In this document: in pieces, positions 1,835 through 6,597 of the stretch | Layout of the letters: every line of letters begins with the position of its first letter | Position numbering within the stretch: the stretch's first letter is position 1 | DNA from: a bacterium | GTDB taxonomy: Bacteria > Patescibacteriota > Dojkabacteria > JAKAPS01 > JAJZLI01 | DNA length: 35,923 bases | Direction: 5' to 3' | NCBI GenBank assembly: GCA_021791275.1 | Contig: JAJYWX010000014.1 | Span: 1 to 35,923 of the forward strand | The notes under the pieces: model-generated | What the model saw: the letters and a program-made list of their open reading frames with translations, nothing else | Database searches by the model: none | Told to the model about the DNA's origin: nothing | Position numbers and translations under genes: made by a program

Positions 1835-2374
1835 TTAATTACAAGTGGAGATACTCCTGTTTGTTATTCCAGAGTTAGGATTATTAAAACAGTAAGAGTT
1901 TGTAAGTATCCATTTATTATTTATATTTGATAAATCAAACTCTTGTATGTCTGAGGAATTTTCTCCTGAAACTTTTATTATTGATATTGAAGGAAGTTCT
2001 GTAATTATAGAATAACTTGGATTTGTGTAAGGCCCAATTAATCTGGTAATAGGATTTAGCTTTCCTCCATTTTTGATATATTGTGATGCTCTTTCTCTGA
2101 AGTTTTCAGATATTGGGCAATTACTGCTTTCAATACAATTTTTGTAATTGTTTATTATATATTGCATTACAGTAATAGGGTCTTGTTCTGGGAAAGATAA
2201 GTTTTTAGAAGCTTTTTTAGTGTTAATACCTTTTATTTGAGTATAAATTCCTGAAATATTAGAATTTTTGACTGAATTTTTTTTATAACTGTTGTATAAA
2301 AGTATTGATAAAACTATTACAGCTATAGCTAATATTACTATTATTGTATTTTTAAAAATATTCTCTTTTTTCAT
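1835..2374 (-). CDS. Small membrane-anchored extracytoplasmic protein with four cysteines, unknown function
   Basis: 179 residues. Residues 1-8 are basic, 9-28 form one hydrophobic helix (signal anchor), and the remainder lies outside the membrane. After a Lys/Asn/Ser linker (to about 60) a compact domain follows with C80, C86, C162 and C178, which could form two disulfides. The helix-rich DPITVMQYI segment and the later alternating strands ending in NKWIL resemble the outline of NTF2-like lipoprotein domains, but this is only a shape impression. It lies 15 bp downstream of the subtilase gene on the same strand and is probably co-transcribed with the protease and the GH18 gene, so a role at the cell surface is likely. 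I do not recognise the family. Confidence 0.6.
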   Translation of the reverse strand: MKKENIFKNTIIVILAIAVIVLSILLYNSYKKNSVKNSNISGIYTQIKGINTKKASKNLSFPEQDPITVMQYIINNYKNCIESSNCPISENFRERASQYIKNGGKLNPITRLIGPYTNPSYSIITELPSISIIKVSGENSSDIQEFDLSNINNKWILTNSYCFNNPNSGITNRSISTCN

Positions 2375-2389
2375 ATAAATATAAATTTG

Positions 2390-4498
2390 TTATCCAGAGA
2401 CAGAGACTGAGTTTATGCCATAAATACTTCCAGAGTAGTTGGCATCTCCAAAGGTATATATAGCCCCATCTCTTTCTAGTATATAATATCCAATATTATC
2501 ATTTGTTAAAAGAAGGTCTACTGGTATATTTGAAGGAACTGCGGATGGATTTATATTATACATCGATCCATAAAATTGGGCATTTCCAAAGGTATATATA
2601 GCTCCATCTTGAGTTAAAAGATAATATCCAAGATCATTTTGTGTTACTTTTAGAGTAACACTTGTCTTTACGGGAGCATTTGGAATATTGTATACAGATC
2701 CATAGAATTGAGCATTTCCGAATGTATAAACAGAACCATTTTGAGTTAGTATATAATATCCTCCTCCATCCGGCGTGATTGCAAACGCCACAGGATTTCT
2801 ATCTGGTATTGCAGAGCTTGGAATATTGTACAAAGATCCATAAAATTGGGCATTACCGAATGTATATACAGCACCATCTTGGGTTAATATATAATATCCT
2901 CCTCCATTTGGAGTAGGTACTATCGCGACAGAATTTCTATCTGGAGGATTGGAAATATTATACATGGATCCATAAAATTGAGCGTTTCCAAAAGTATAAA
3001 CAGATCCGTTTTGAGTCAGTATGTAATATCCAAGATTGTTGGAAGTTTCACTTATATCAACAACACTTCCATAATTTTGATTTATAGATTGCATACTACC
3101 ATAGTTGGGAATTCCACCTTCTGAGTAGACTCCACCAGAGGAGGAGAGTATGTTGTATGCTGATGTATTATTTTGTCCATTATTTTGAGATAACATTGCA
3201 TTAACATTTAAAAGTCCATATCCAAATTCATTGGCATTTCCAATATTAGTGGAGCTTTGCTCCAGTGCATTTTCAATTACATTTAGAGGCTGTATTCCAT
3301 ATTTAGACTCATACAATGCTACAGCTGCAGTTACCTGTGGTGCTGAAAATGATGTTCCTGCTGCGTATTGATTTGCGAAATTACTGTATCCTGATACACT
3401 TCCAGATCCAAAACCTGCATAGCTTTGCTGATATACTAATGGATTATTATATCCAACCGGAGCTACTAATGTTTGGCAGTTTCCAAGAGAGCTACAACCA
3501 TAGTTTGAATAACTCGTAAGTGCATTTTGAGAATTTGTTGCACCAACAGCTATTACATTAGGGTATCCTGCAGGGTAATCTATACTTGATGTTCCCTCAT
3601 TTCCGGAAGATGCAACAACTATAATTCCATCAGATATCGCCTGCTCAACCATATTCTCCTCTTGGGTGTTGGGAGTAGACCCTGTAAAGCTCATATTGAT
3701 TATATTTGCATGATTATTGATTGCCCATTGAATTCCTAAAAGCTCTGCACTCAGAGGTATTCCAGAAGAATTTCCAACCTTTATAGGCATTATAGAAACA
3801 TTAAATGCTATTCCTGCAACTCCATATTCTTGAGATCCAGAAGCGTCATTGTTTGTGCCAGAAGCGATAACTCCCGTTACAAAAGTTCCATGACCCACAC
3901 TATCATATGGATCATACAGGTCTTGAGTGTCTCCTTGATATTGAGCTAATGCGTTATATGGATCAACTATATTAGTTTGAGATAAGGCAGGGGATTGGGA
4001 ATATGTCGTCCCCGTCAAAGGATTGGTATATGTTTGATATTCTACTCCAGAGTCAAGAACAGCTACCTTTATATTACTTGATCCTCCTAAAGATTGGGAG
4101 AATCCAGAATTATCTACTACTGGAGCGTTTATATCAAAGAGATTTTTTTGTAAATTTATATCAACATTATTTGGAAGTGAGGCAAAATGCCTTATATAAT
4201 TAGGAGAAACACTGCTTACACTTTTATTAGCGATAAGGGAGGTAAGAAACGTTTTATAATTTTCATTTTTTGGTTTATCAACTATTTTAATATTATTGTT
4301 GACATTTATAACCTTAGCCCCATCAAAGTTTTTACTCTTAGAGCTTACGATTACAGAATTTTGAGAATAGTCTTTTCCGGAAGTTAGTTTTTGATACTTT
4401 GAGTTTATGTTTTGTATATTTACATCTGATGCATATAATCTTCCCACAACAGAAGAAAATATTATCGTAGCAATACTGATAATTAATATTTTTTTCAT
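2390..4498 (-). CDS. Secreted subtilisin-like serine protease (S8) with six C-terminal propeller-like repeats
   Basis: 702 residues. A signal peptide occupies 1-23 (cut near YAS), then an I9-like propeptide at about 46-104, then an S8 catalytic domain at about 115-440. The triad is D149 (AVLDSGV), H203 (GHGTFVTG) and S383 (GTSFSAP); the oxyanion Asn is N300 (SSGNEG). All key residues are present, so it should be an active exported endopeptidase. From about 446 to 695 there are six repeats of roughly 45 residues with the core GYYILTQ-DG-x-VYTFG-x-AQFYGS; the first copy is degenerate. Similar GYW..DGG..FGDA repeats are known in actinobacterial surface proteins and are likely beta-propeller blades. 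The GH18 gene ends 2 nt upstream and carries the same repeats, so both probably bind the same surface target. The substrate is unknown. Confidence 0.93.
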   Translation of the reverse strand: MKKILIISIATIIFSSVVGRLYASDVNIQNINSKYQKLTSGKDYSQNSVIVSSKSKNFDGAKVINVNNNIKIVDKPKNENYKTFLTSLIANKSVSSVSPNYIRHFASLPNNVDINLQKNLFDINAPVVDNSGFSQSLGGSSNIKVAVLDSGVEYQTYTNPLTGTTYSQSPALSQTNIVDPYNALAQYQGDTQDLYDPYDSVGHGTFVTGVIASGTNNDASGSQEYGVAGIAFNVSIMPIKVGNSSGIPLSAELLGIQWAINNHANIINMSFTGSTPNTQEENMVEQAISDGIIVVASSGNEGTSSIDYPAGYPNVIAVGATNSQNALTSYSNYGCSSLGNCQTLVAPVGYNNPLVYQQSYAGFGSGSVSGYSNFANQYAAGTSFSAPQVTAAVALYESKYGIQPLNVIENALEQSSTNIGNANEFGYGLLNVNAMLSQNNGQNNTSAYNILSSSGGVYSEGGIPNYGSMQSINQNYGSVVDISETSNNLGYYILTQNGSVYTFGNAQFYGSMYNISNPPDRNSVAIVPTPNGGGYYILTQDGAVYTFGNAQFYGSLYNIPSSAIPDRNPVAFAITPDGGGYYILTQNGSVYTFGNAQFYGSVYNIPNAPVKTSVTLKVTQNDLGYYLLTQDGAIYTFGNAQFYGSMYNINPSAVPSNIPVDLLLTNDNIGYYILERDGAIYTFGDANYSGSIYGINSVSVSG
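2414..3163 (-). repeat. Six protein repeats (~45 aa) in the protease tail
   Basis: Repeat starts lie at protein residues of about 446 (degenerate), 490, 534, 580, 624 and 670. Each carries a GYY(I/L)LTQ(N/D)G strand, (V/I)YTFG, and AQFYGS(M/V/L)YNI, followed by a variable 12-18 residue link. The repeats are similar at the DNA level as well, including copies shared with the neighbouring GH18 gene. Confidence 0.9.
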
Positions 4499-4500
4499 AA

Positions 4501-6597
4501 TTAAGGTGAGAGATTAAATCCTTGCGTGCTATTAAAAATACCTATACCAGTACCATCATAAACCGCATTTCCGAAAGTATAAATACCTCCATCTTGAGTG
4601 ACCAAATAATATCCTTGATTATTATTTGTAACAGCGAATGCTATTGGTGTAGTATTAGGAGCTCCACTTATATTATACATAGAGCCAAAGAATTGAGCAT
4701 CTCCAAAGGTATAAACTGCTCCATCCTGAGTAGTTATATAATAACCTCCTCCGTCTGGAGTTAAAGCAAGATTTACTGCATTTTTATTAGGAGCTTGAGG
4801 AATATTAAATACAGATCCATGGAATTGAGCATCTCCAAATGTGTAAACTGCTCCATTGGATGTCATTATGTAGTAACCCTCTCCATCTGGAGTAACTGCA
4901 AATGCAACAGGAGTTCTATCTGGTATTGCAGAAGAGGGTATGTTATATAAAGATCCGAAGAATTGGGCATCTCCAAAGGTATAGACACCCCCATCTGCCG
5001 TTAATACATAGTATCCTTTTCCATCTGGAGTAGTTGCTATAGTCACGGGGGTCTTTACTGGAGCATTCGGGATATTGTATACAGACCCGTAGAATTGGGC
5101 CGAGCCAAAAGTATAGATACCACTATCTTGGGTAAGTATATAATAGCCCGTGTCATTTGGAAGTGGGGACATTGAAACTGCATTATAATTAGGTGCATTA
5201 TTTATGTAAGACATATCTCCGTAATAATTAGCTTCTCCTAATGGTAATATTTTTCCATGCGAAGATAGTATATAGTATGCACTGTTATTTTTTGAAAATA
5301 TTGAATTCTCTGTGAAGTAGCTATTTATAGCACCTGTAAGCTCAGTGGATGGCTGTTCATATCCTAGTGTCCATATGCTTACTCCTCTTAAGTTTGATTG
5401 TAATACTTGTGAGTACACCAACCCCAGTGATGTGGCATTGGAATAATAGCCCTCTCTTAACTGATCTCCAGATGCACAATTCGGAGGAGTATTATTTGAT
5501 GTATAACAGTATCCATACCATGGGGTTGAGCTTTGCGAATCCCAGTGTTTAGTGTTTTGATTTTTGTACTCATCATTTGTTTGTCCATAAGGCTCACTTA
5601 TGCCAGTTCCACTAACTACGGATGCATTTTGAGAATCATTTGTTGTTTGATAATCATTTCCGTAATATGGGATTCCCAATATTATTTTATTAGGATTTAT
5701 TGCAGACGCATAATCAAGTATTGTTCTTCTGACATCGTACCATAAAGGTCCTGCCCCATTATTATATCCAGTAAAAGGATTCACGGGTTCTGCTACAGTT
5801 GAAGATGGGGTATAGTAATCGTACGCCATAACATTTACTGCATCTGCAGCATTTGCAAGTGCAGGGATGTTATACAAGGATCCTTGCCAACGTACTGCTG
5901 ATGCAATAGTATCAACGCTTACAAACGATCCTGGTATTTGTTGGTGTGTTTCACTTGTAAGATTCGCAACAAAAGATGTGAAATTGTTTATTGTTGTAGT
6001 ATCTGGGGTACCTTCTGATCCTGGGTCATATTCAAAATCTATATTTATACCCTGAAGGTTATATTGCTTTGTTATTGCTATTATATTGTTAATAAAATTT
6101 TGAGAATTTGTGGAGTTGTTTACGACACTCTCTATATCTGATAGATTAAAAATTTTTGCTGTTATAACTACCCTTACATTATATGAGTGTGCAATATTTA
6201 CCATATTTGTAAATTGTGCGGATGTAAGCCCTGCGTATCCATTTCCACCACCTGCTCCTGTTCCAAAATTACCATTTCCATCAGATGTTATTCCAAAATA
6301 ATCTATTGTTGTTAGGTTCTGATATGGATAATTTAGATATGCACCTGAAGAAAGGTCCCAATATGGAGCAAATCCCATAACTTCTTTTTGAAGTCCCTGA
6401 GGGCCATAACTTGCAAACTGATCAAATGGGGTTGGTTTAACAGTTGTTTTTACAAAAGAATAGGATTTATTCTGGTATAGTGAGTTAAGGTACATATTCC
6501 CCATATATGCTGATTGCGGGGGAGGGGTTTGTGCAAACACCTTTCCTGAAAAAGATAAGAAAACTAATGCAATAATTAAAGGTATATATTTTTTCAT
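4501..6597 (-). CDS. Secreted GH18 family glycosidase (YaaH/CFLE-like) with six C-terminal propeller-like repeats
   Basis: 698 residues with a signal peptide at 1-22 (cut near FAQ). The GH18 barrel spans about 70-430. Its active-site strand reads GINIDFEY at 183-190, so the catalytic acid E189 and the assisting D187 are kept, while the outer Asp of the chitinase DGxDxDxE signature is Asn (N185). The same NIDFE form occurs in spore-cortex YaaH/CFLE-type enzymes that act on peptidoglycan N-acetylglucosamine bonds. Other family marks are GFAPYW (75-80), VNVMAYDYY (254-262), ILGIPYYG (306-313) and GVSIWTLGYE (405-414). Residues from about 439 to 690 form six repeats of the same type as in the downstream protease. 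A glycan substrate (peptidoglycan or another GlcNAc polymer) is likely; which one is not shown. Confidence 0.9.
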   Translation of the reverse strand: MKKYIPLIIALVFLSFSGKVFAQTPPPQSAYMGNMYLNSLYQNKSYSFVKTTVKPTPFDQFASYGPQGLQKEVMGFAPYWDLSSGAYLNYPYQNLTTIDYFGITSDGNGNFGTGAGGGNGYAGLTSAQFTNMVNIAHSYNVRVVITAKIFNLSDIESVVNNSTNSQNFINNIIAITKQYNLQGINIDFEYDPGSEGTPDTTTINNFTSFVANLTSETHQQIPGSFVSVDTIASAVRWQGSLYNIPALANAADAVNVMAYDYYTPSSTVAEPVNPFTGYNNGAGPLWYDVRRTILDYASAINPNKIILGIPYYGNDYQTTNDSQNASVVSGTGISEPYGQTNDEYKNQNTKHWDSQSSTPWYGYCYTSNNTPPNCASGDQLREGYYSNATSLGLVYSQVLQSNLRGVSIWTLGYEQPSTELTGAINSYFTENSIFSKNNSAYYILSSHGKILPLGEANYYGDMSYINNAPNYNAVSMSPLPNDTGYYILTQDSGIYTFGSAQFYGSVYNIPNAPVKTPVTIATTPDGKGYYVLTADGGVYTFGDAQFFGSLYNIPSSAIPDRTPVAFAVTPDGEGYYIMTSNGAVYTFGDAQFHGSVFNIPQAPNKNAVNLALTPDGGGYYITTQDGAVYTFGDAQFFGSMYNISGAPNTTPIAFAVTNNNQGYYLVTQDGGIYTFGNAVYDGTGIGIFNSTQGFNLSP
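4528..5283 (-). repeat. Six protein repeats (~45 aa) in the GH18 tail
   Basis: Repeat starts lie near residues 440, 484, 528, 574, 618 and 662, each with GYY(I/V/L), (D/N)G(A/G), (V/I)YTFG(D/N)A and FxGSxxNI. Two links (IPSSAIPDR-x-PVAFA and NIPNAPVKT-x-VT) are nearly identical to links in the protease tail but in the opposite order. Confidence 0.9.

Follow-up and report, generated by a model that had tools for sequence, protein, structure and literature searches.

The RCC1/BLIP-II class of beta-propellers, characterised by seven blades, includes BLIP-II, a secreted protein binder (PMC10817188, PMC9218822) whose blades each comprise three strands and a helix (PMC10817188, PMC6121496), and RCC1-like propellers such as those of RPGR, HERC1/2 and RCC1. 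Two neighbouring genes of the window (the whole stretch of 35,923 nucleotides that was analysed) encode exported enzymes whose C-terminal part resembles these propellers by RCC1 sequence similarity and by predicted three-strand blades, most with a helix, but differs from them by six units instead of seven, by a unit length of about 45 residues and by its fusion to exported enzymes. One of the enzymes shares its catalytic residues and a Pfam match with subtilisin-type S8 proteases but ends in a six-unit ring, whereas its relatives in the same bacterial class bear an Asp-box/BNR tail or DUF5648. The other shares a Pfam match and the D-x-E, Tyr and Trp positions with GH18 chitinases and related GH18 enzymes; it differs from the chitinases by its added C-terminal ring and by the sequence Q-G-I-N-I-D-F-E in place of the classical D-x-x-D-x-D-x-E, of which the last Asp and the Glu alone are kept.

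The GH18 hydrolase gene (4501-6597, minus strand; 698 aa, P0002), the first of the pair, encodes a signal peptide, a catalytic domain and the C-terminal ring. Its stop is separated by 2 bases from the S8 (subtilisin) protease gene (2390-4498, minus strand; 702 aa, P0001), which encodes a signal peptide, a likely prodomain, a catalytic domain and the C-terminal ring, and the gene of a 179-aa membrane protein comes next on the same strand. An earlier note made from the sequence alone had described an exported S8 protease beside an exported GH18 enzyme; both open reading frames are present and both proteins match the corresponding Pfam families. Inspection of the two sequences revealed an N-terminal hydrophobic signal in each, with no other membrane-like segment and no LPxTG-like end.

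The GH18 protein matches Glyco_hydro_18 (PF00704) at aa 118-413 (E 9.4e-33) and its best sequence matches are solved chitinases (E 6e-14). The N185-I-D187-F-E189 motif, Y259 and W409 are kept in all seven complete GH18 orthologues, the catalytic Glu of the family domain being E189 within the conserved NIDFE. In the protease, Peptidase_S8 is matched at aa 141-428 (E 1.5e-42), and D149, H203, N300 and S383, which correspond to the Asp-His-Ser triad and the oxyanion Asn, are invariant in the eight orthologues aligned. A prodomain-like region at aa ~31-101, modelled at pLDDT 68-90, is likely a prodomain. Only this region and the tail were used from the full-length model, as the model cannot be relied on for the catalytic half (pLDDT mostly 27-57, shallow alignment); Foldseek on the full-length model yielded nothing further. 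A scan of genome contigs with the protease as query gave only three loci of the family and a weak S8 match in Photobacterium.

The earlier note had counted six repeats per tail, and a hidden Markov model of the unit finds the same number in both proteins, namely six units of ~45 residues in the protease (2393-3160, minus strand; aa 447-702) and six in the GH18 protein (4504-5280, minus strand; aa 440-698). The position of the tails is close to that first proposed, and their bounds extend slightly beyond the 446-695 and 439-690 given there. In both tails, the scores of units 2-5 lie at 74-84 bits. The degenerate unit 1 (12 and 40 bits in the two tails) begins at the second strand of the pattern, while unit 6 matches the first 27-29 of the 43 model positions (40 and 29 bits) and then continues into a divergent terminal strand. 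Judged from sequence, a degenerate first unit together with a partial last unit and a divergent last strand is the pattern that a self-closed ring would show. In 1000 shuffled tails no unit scored above 9.5 bits, and none of these tails had more than one unit of at least 7 bits; since the model was built from the same proteins, these shuffles exclude composition and give no independent evidence of homology. All 26 complete tails from eight genomes in five genera have six units, so that the unit count, which the earlier note had proposed to check among close relatives, does not vary.

The predicted fold agrees with these counts. AlphaFold, run on the GH18 tail with an alignment of 26 tails, gave 18 strands, three per unit (pLDDT 95.6, pTM 0.92), with a short helix called by DSSP in units 1, 2, 3 and 5 and none in units 4 and 6. 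The protease tail, modelled within the full-length protein, also has 18 strands (pLDDT mostly 88-97, with parts of unit 1 at 72-80). In Foldseek searches of the PDB with the GH18 tail (best E 1.8e-10), the matches listed are beta-propellers or chains known to contain propellers of the WD type; against solved propellers, most of them seven-bladed, the TM-scores stay at about 0.5-0.66. The propeller-like tail of the earlier note is thus borne out by a high-confidence beta-propeller prediction, ordered and probably closed. DSSP calls a C-terminal strand in both tails and, from strand count and DSSP rather than from coordinates, only the N-terminal hairpin lacks a partner. Because the C-terminal strand has only this hairpin left for pairing, we infer that both tails form a closed six-bladed ring in the models.

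Sequence comparisons place this ring in the RCC1/BLIP-II class, with six blades instead of the seven of that class. PF13540 (RCC1_2) is above the cut-off in both proteins and a profile search among known structures retrieved RPGR (E 6.7e-9), HERC1/2 and RCC1; BLIP-II itself is absent from the sequence matches of the ring up to E 10. The predicted beta-propeller fold and the three strands per unit, with a helix in most units, correspond to the class and to blades of the BLIP-II type. A more distant relative is a tail-region protein of the phage Caudovirales GX15bay (QBQ74878.1; 26% identity over 98% of the ring, E 2e-13), which resembles the ring by arrays of six motif units each, as counted by eye (L109 2636-6550), and differs from it by its phage origin, by the presence of two arrays and by a divergent sequence (GYW, not GYY). 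GYW-type repeats are found in actinobacterial relatives. Searches using the GX15bay array found nothing further. Carriage of the ring as phage or plasmid cargo was rejected, as no match was found in plasmids or viral contigs and this distant protein is the only phage one.

Rings are present in all eight genomes of the bacterial family, in none of 78 other genomes of the class (two of the sister family and 76 further) and in none of the non-family genomes among 380 sampled from the phylum. No such ring was found for small bacteria in the literature searched. Every one of the eight family genomes has the S8 and GH18 genes, both with rings, side by side; in the seven relatives the gap measures -1 to 21 bases. 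The earlier note had suggested a search for other catalytic domains fused to the repeat; four further kinds of N- or C-terminal part were found, all in exported proteins. The ring is joined to Kelch-like N-terminal parts, to C-terminal parts read as Ig-like and to a Cys-repeat protein, and it lies at the N-terminus of proteins of 1025 aa (L066 4432-7509) and 1015 aa (L076 297-3344), where it is followed by YadA-like-looking repeats; the latter protein also has a sub-threshold H-type lectin match (E 1.3e-4). Some of the ring proteins have no recognised enzyme domain and some are encoded far from the S8-GH18 pair. An extra tail on contig C34 of the same assembly (G000) was rejected as a genuine third copy: it is a contig-end fragment collinear with 1-2.6 kb of the window, of which it is a diverged copy (L005 13568-16396), the last 82 ring residues of the protease being 93% identical, and it is likely a strain variant or an assembly overlap.

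Across architectures, units of the same index share 53% mean identity and units of different index 46%. The closest match of a unit in another architecture bears the same index in 97 of 156 cases, where 26 would be expected. These index-matched units indicate that the ring spread as a whole module, and rule out independent repeat growth within each protein as the sole account.

Searches with the catalytic parts alone revealed pairs outside the ring-bearing family. Another family of the class has, in four genomes, a GH18 gene with an S8 gene immediately after it, at gaps of -4 to 10 (L131 5515-10059 in G055; L132 5341-9903 in G054; L133 5088-9768 in G049; L134 5477-9987 in G048). The tail of these proteases is of the Asp-box/BNR type: three of the genomes show six or seven Asp-box motifs in it, and in G049 three can be recognised. 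There is no propeller domain on the GH18 protein of these pairs. A shared ring is therefore unnecessary for the pair as such. The GH18-S8 pair probably predates the ring, or else came together on two occasions, and its binding part probably differs between families. A protease-glycosidase pair found in two families with two propeller-type protease tails suggests a functional unit with an exchangeable binding part.

The third gene (1835-2374, minus strand), which the earlier note had tentatively attached to the pair, does encode a membrane-anchored protein (179 aa) whose four Cys are invariant among the five aligned homologues, but its membership of the system is weak. Homologues are present in six of the eight genomes and lie beside the protease in only four of the eight (genera g1 and g2); in G004 and G007 the homologue is ~8-9 kb from the pair, and none was found in g4. 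This protein is thus only loosely linked to the pair. The next gene, at 994-1800 on the minus strand, encodes a family 2 glycosyltransferase (PF00535, E 1.1e-35), and all seven relatives have, close to the pair, a gene of 266-273 aa with the same N-terminal sequence. Glycosyltransferases and surface-glycan genes abound in the region, and the loci of relatives hold an ABC-type exporter pair, interpreted here as exporting polysaccharide. Another conserved product, an exported protein of ~440-450 aa (L062 5566-6885, L065 11685-13004, L064 12010-13365, L061 4925-6283) is encoded just upstream of GH18 in three of four genomes and ~8 kb from the pair in L061; a Pfam scan of the L062 copy gave no match. 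In G007, the GH18 gene is preceded by one (L074 5608-6813) for an exported coiled-coil protein, which in its C-terminal half resembles a C39-type peptidase by eye.

Taken as a whole, the system could be viewed as follows. Both enzymes would be made from nearly abutting genes and exported via Sec-type signal peptides, the protease probably maturing through removal of its prodomain. In both tails, each blade of ~45 residues would consist of three strands, the last strand of the chain completing the first blade. The ring would serve for binding rather than catalysis and would have been transferred in one piece between exported proteins of a single family, and we infer that it targets both enzymes to one surface, as the earlier note had suggested. 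Sharing this ring would keep the two enzymes together at one surface site, where protein and glycan of one structure could be cut together. The most likely site would be the envelope or glycocalyx of the producing cell, which is favoured because one conserved ring sits on unrelated exported proteins of one genome and because the locus is a surface-glycan cluster. We would give an even chance to the full reading, that is, a closed six-bladed propeller of the RCC1/BLIP-II class acting as a family-specific binding module that holds the two enzymes at one surface, likeliest the own envelope. Sortase genes are present in 8/8 family genomes; they represent at least one other anchoring route in the family, which counts against a holding role of the ring, and they rule out the lack of sortase as its reason for being.

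The earlier note had pointed to the envelope of another cell, and the ring could bind a host or neighbour envelope that the enzyme pair would digest to feed or attach a host-dependent small cell. The family genomes, of 0.6-0.9 Mb, do suggest a host-dependent life, a protease and a GH18 hydrolase could attack a foreign envelope, and the distant relative of the ring belongs to the tail region of GX15bay; phage tail proteins often face the host surface. However, the ring sequence is strongly conserved across five genera, whereas host-binding parts often diversify, and it is also borne by the proteins without recognised enzyme domain. This reading therefore appears unlikely, and the observations agree no less well with the envelope of the producer itself than with host digestion. 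Similarly doubtful, and to our mind rather improbable, is a wider scheme in which the family, independently of the sortase route, would have developed a six-bladed ring that addresses a whole set of exported proteins, from the protease and the glycosidase to adhesin-like and Kelch-like proteins, to a single surface, and would use it to digest the envelope of the cell it lives on.

The rings might instead join proteins to each other, ring-ring or ring-partner contacts building one complex of the exported enzymes or regulating them, as BLIP-II does with beta-lactamases. The near abutment of the two genes and the protein binding by BLIP-II, a three-strand-per-blade propeller of the class (PMC10817188, PMC9218822), are in keeping with this, but rings on proteins encoded far from the pair, and the existence of the pair without a shared ring in another family, make it quite improbable. 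A mere stabilising cap or spacer without specific ligand, for exported proteins in acid water, is very improbable: the tails carry few charges (KR 1.9%, DE 5-6%) and much Tyr/Phe and Asn/Gln/Ser/Thr, a composition that might be favourable in an acid medium, and the relatives are probably mine MAGs, but the catalytic parts of both enzymes are low in charge too, and exactly six units with index-specific sequence would be needless for a spacer.

The reading preferred here, a binding module that addresses both enzymes to one surface, bears on a question that is directly testable, since the ring is small (~255 aa), has a high-confidence structure prediction and can be produced without growing the organism. 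Should it indeed serve for addressing, its ligand would tell whether the secreted enzymes of an uncultured small cell end up on the coat of that cell or on another cell.
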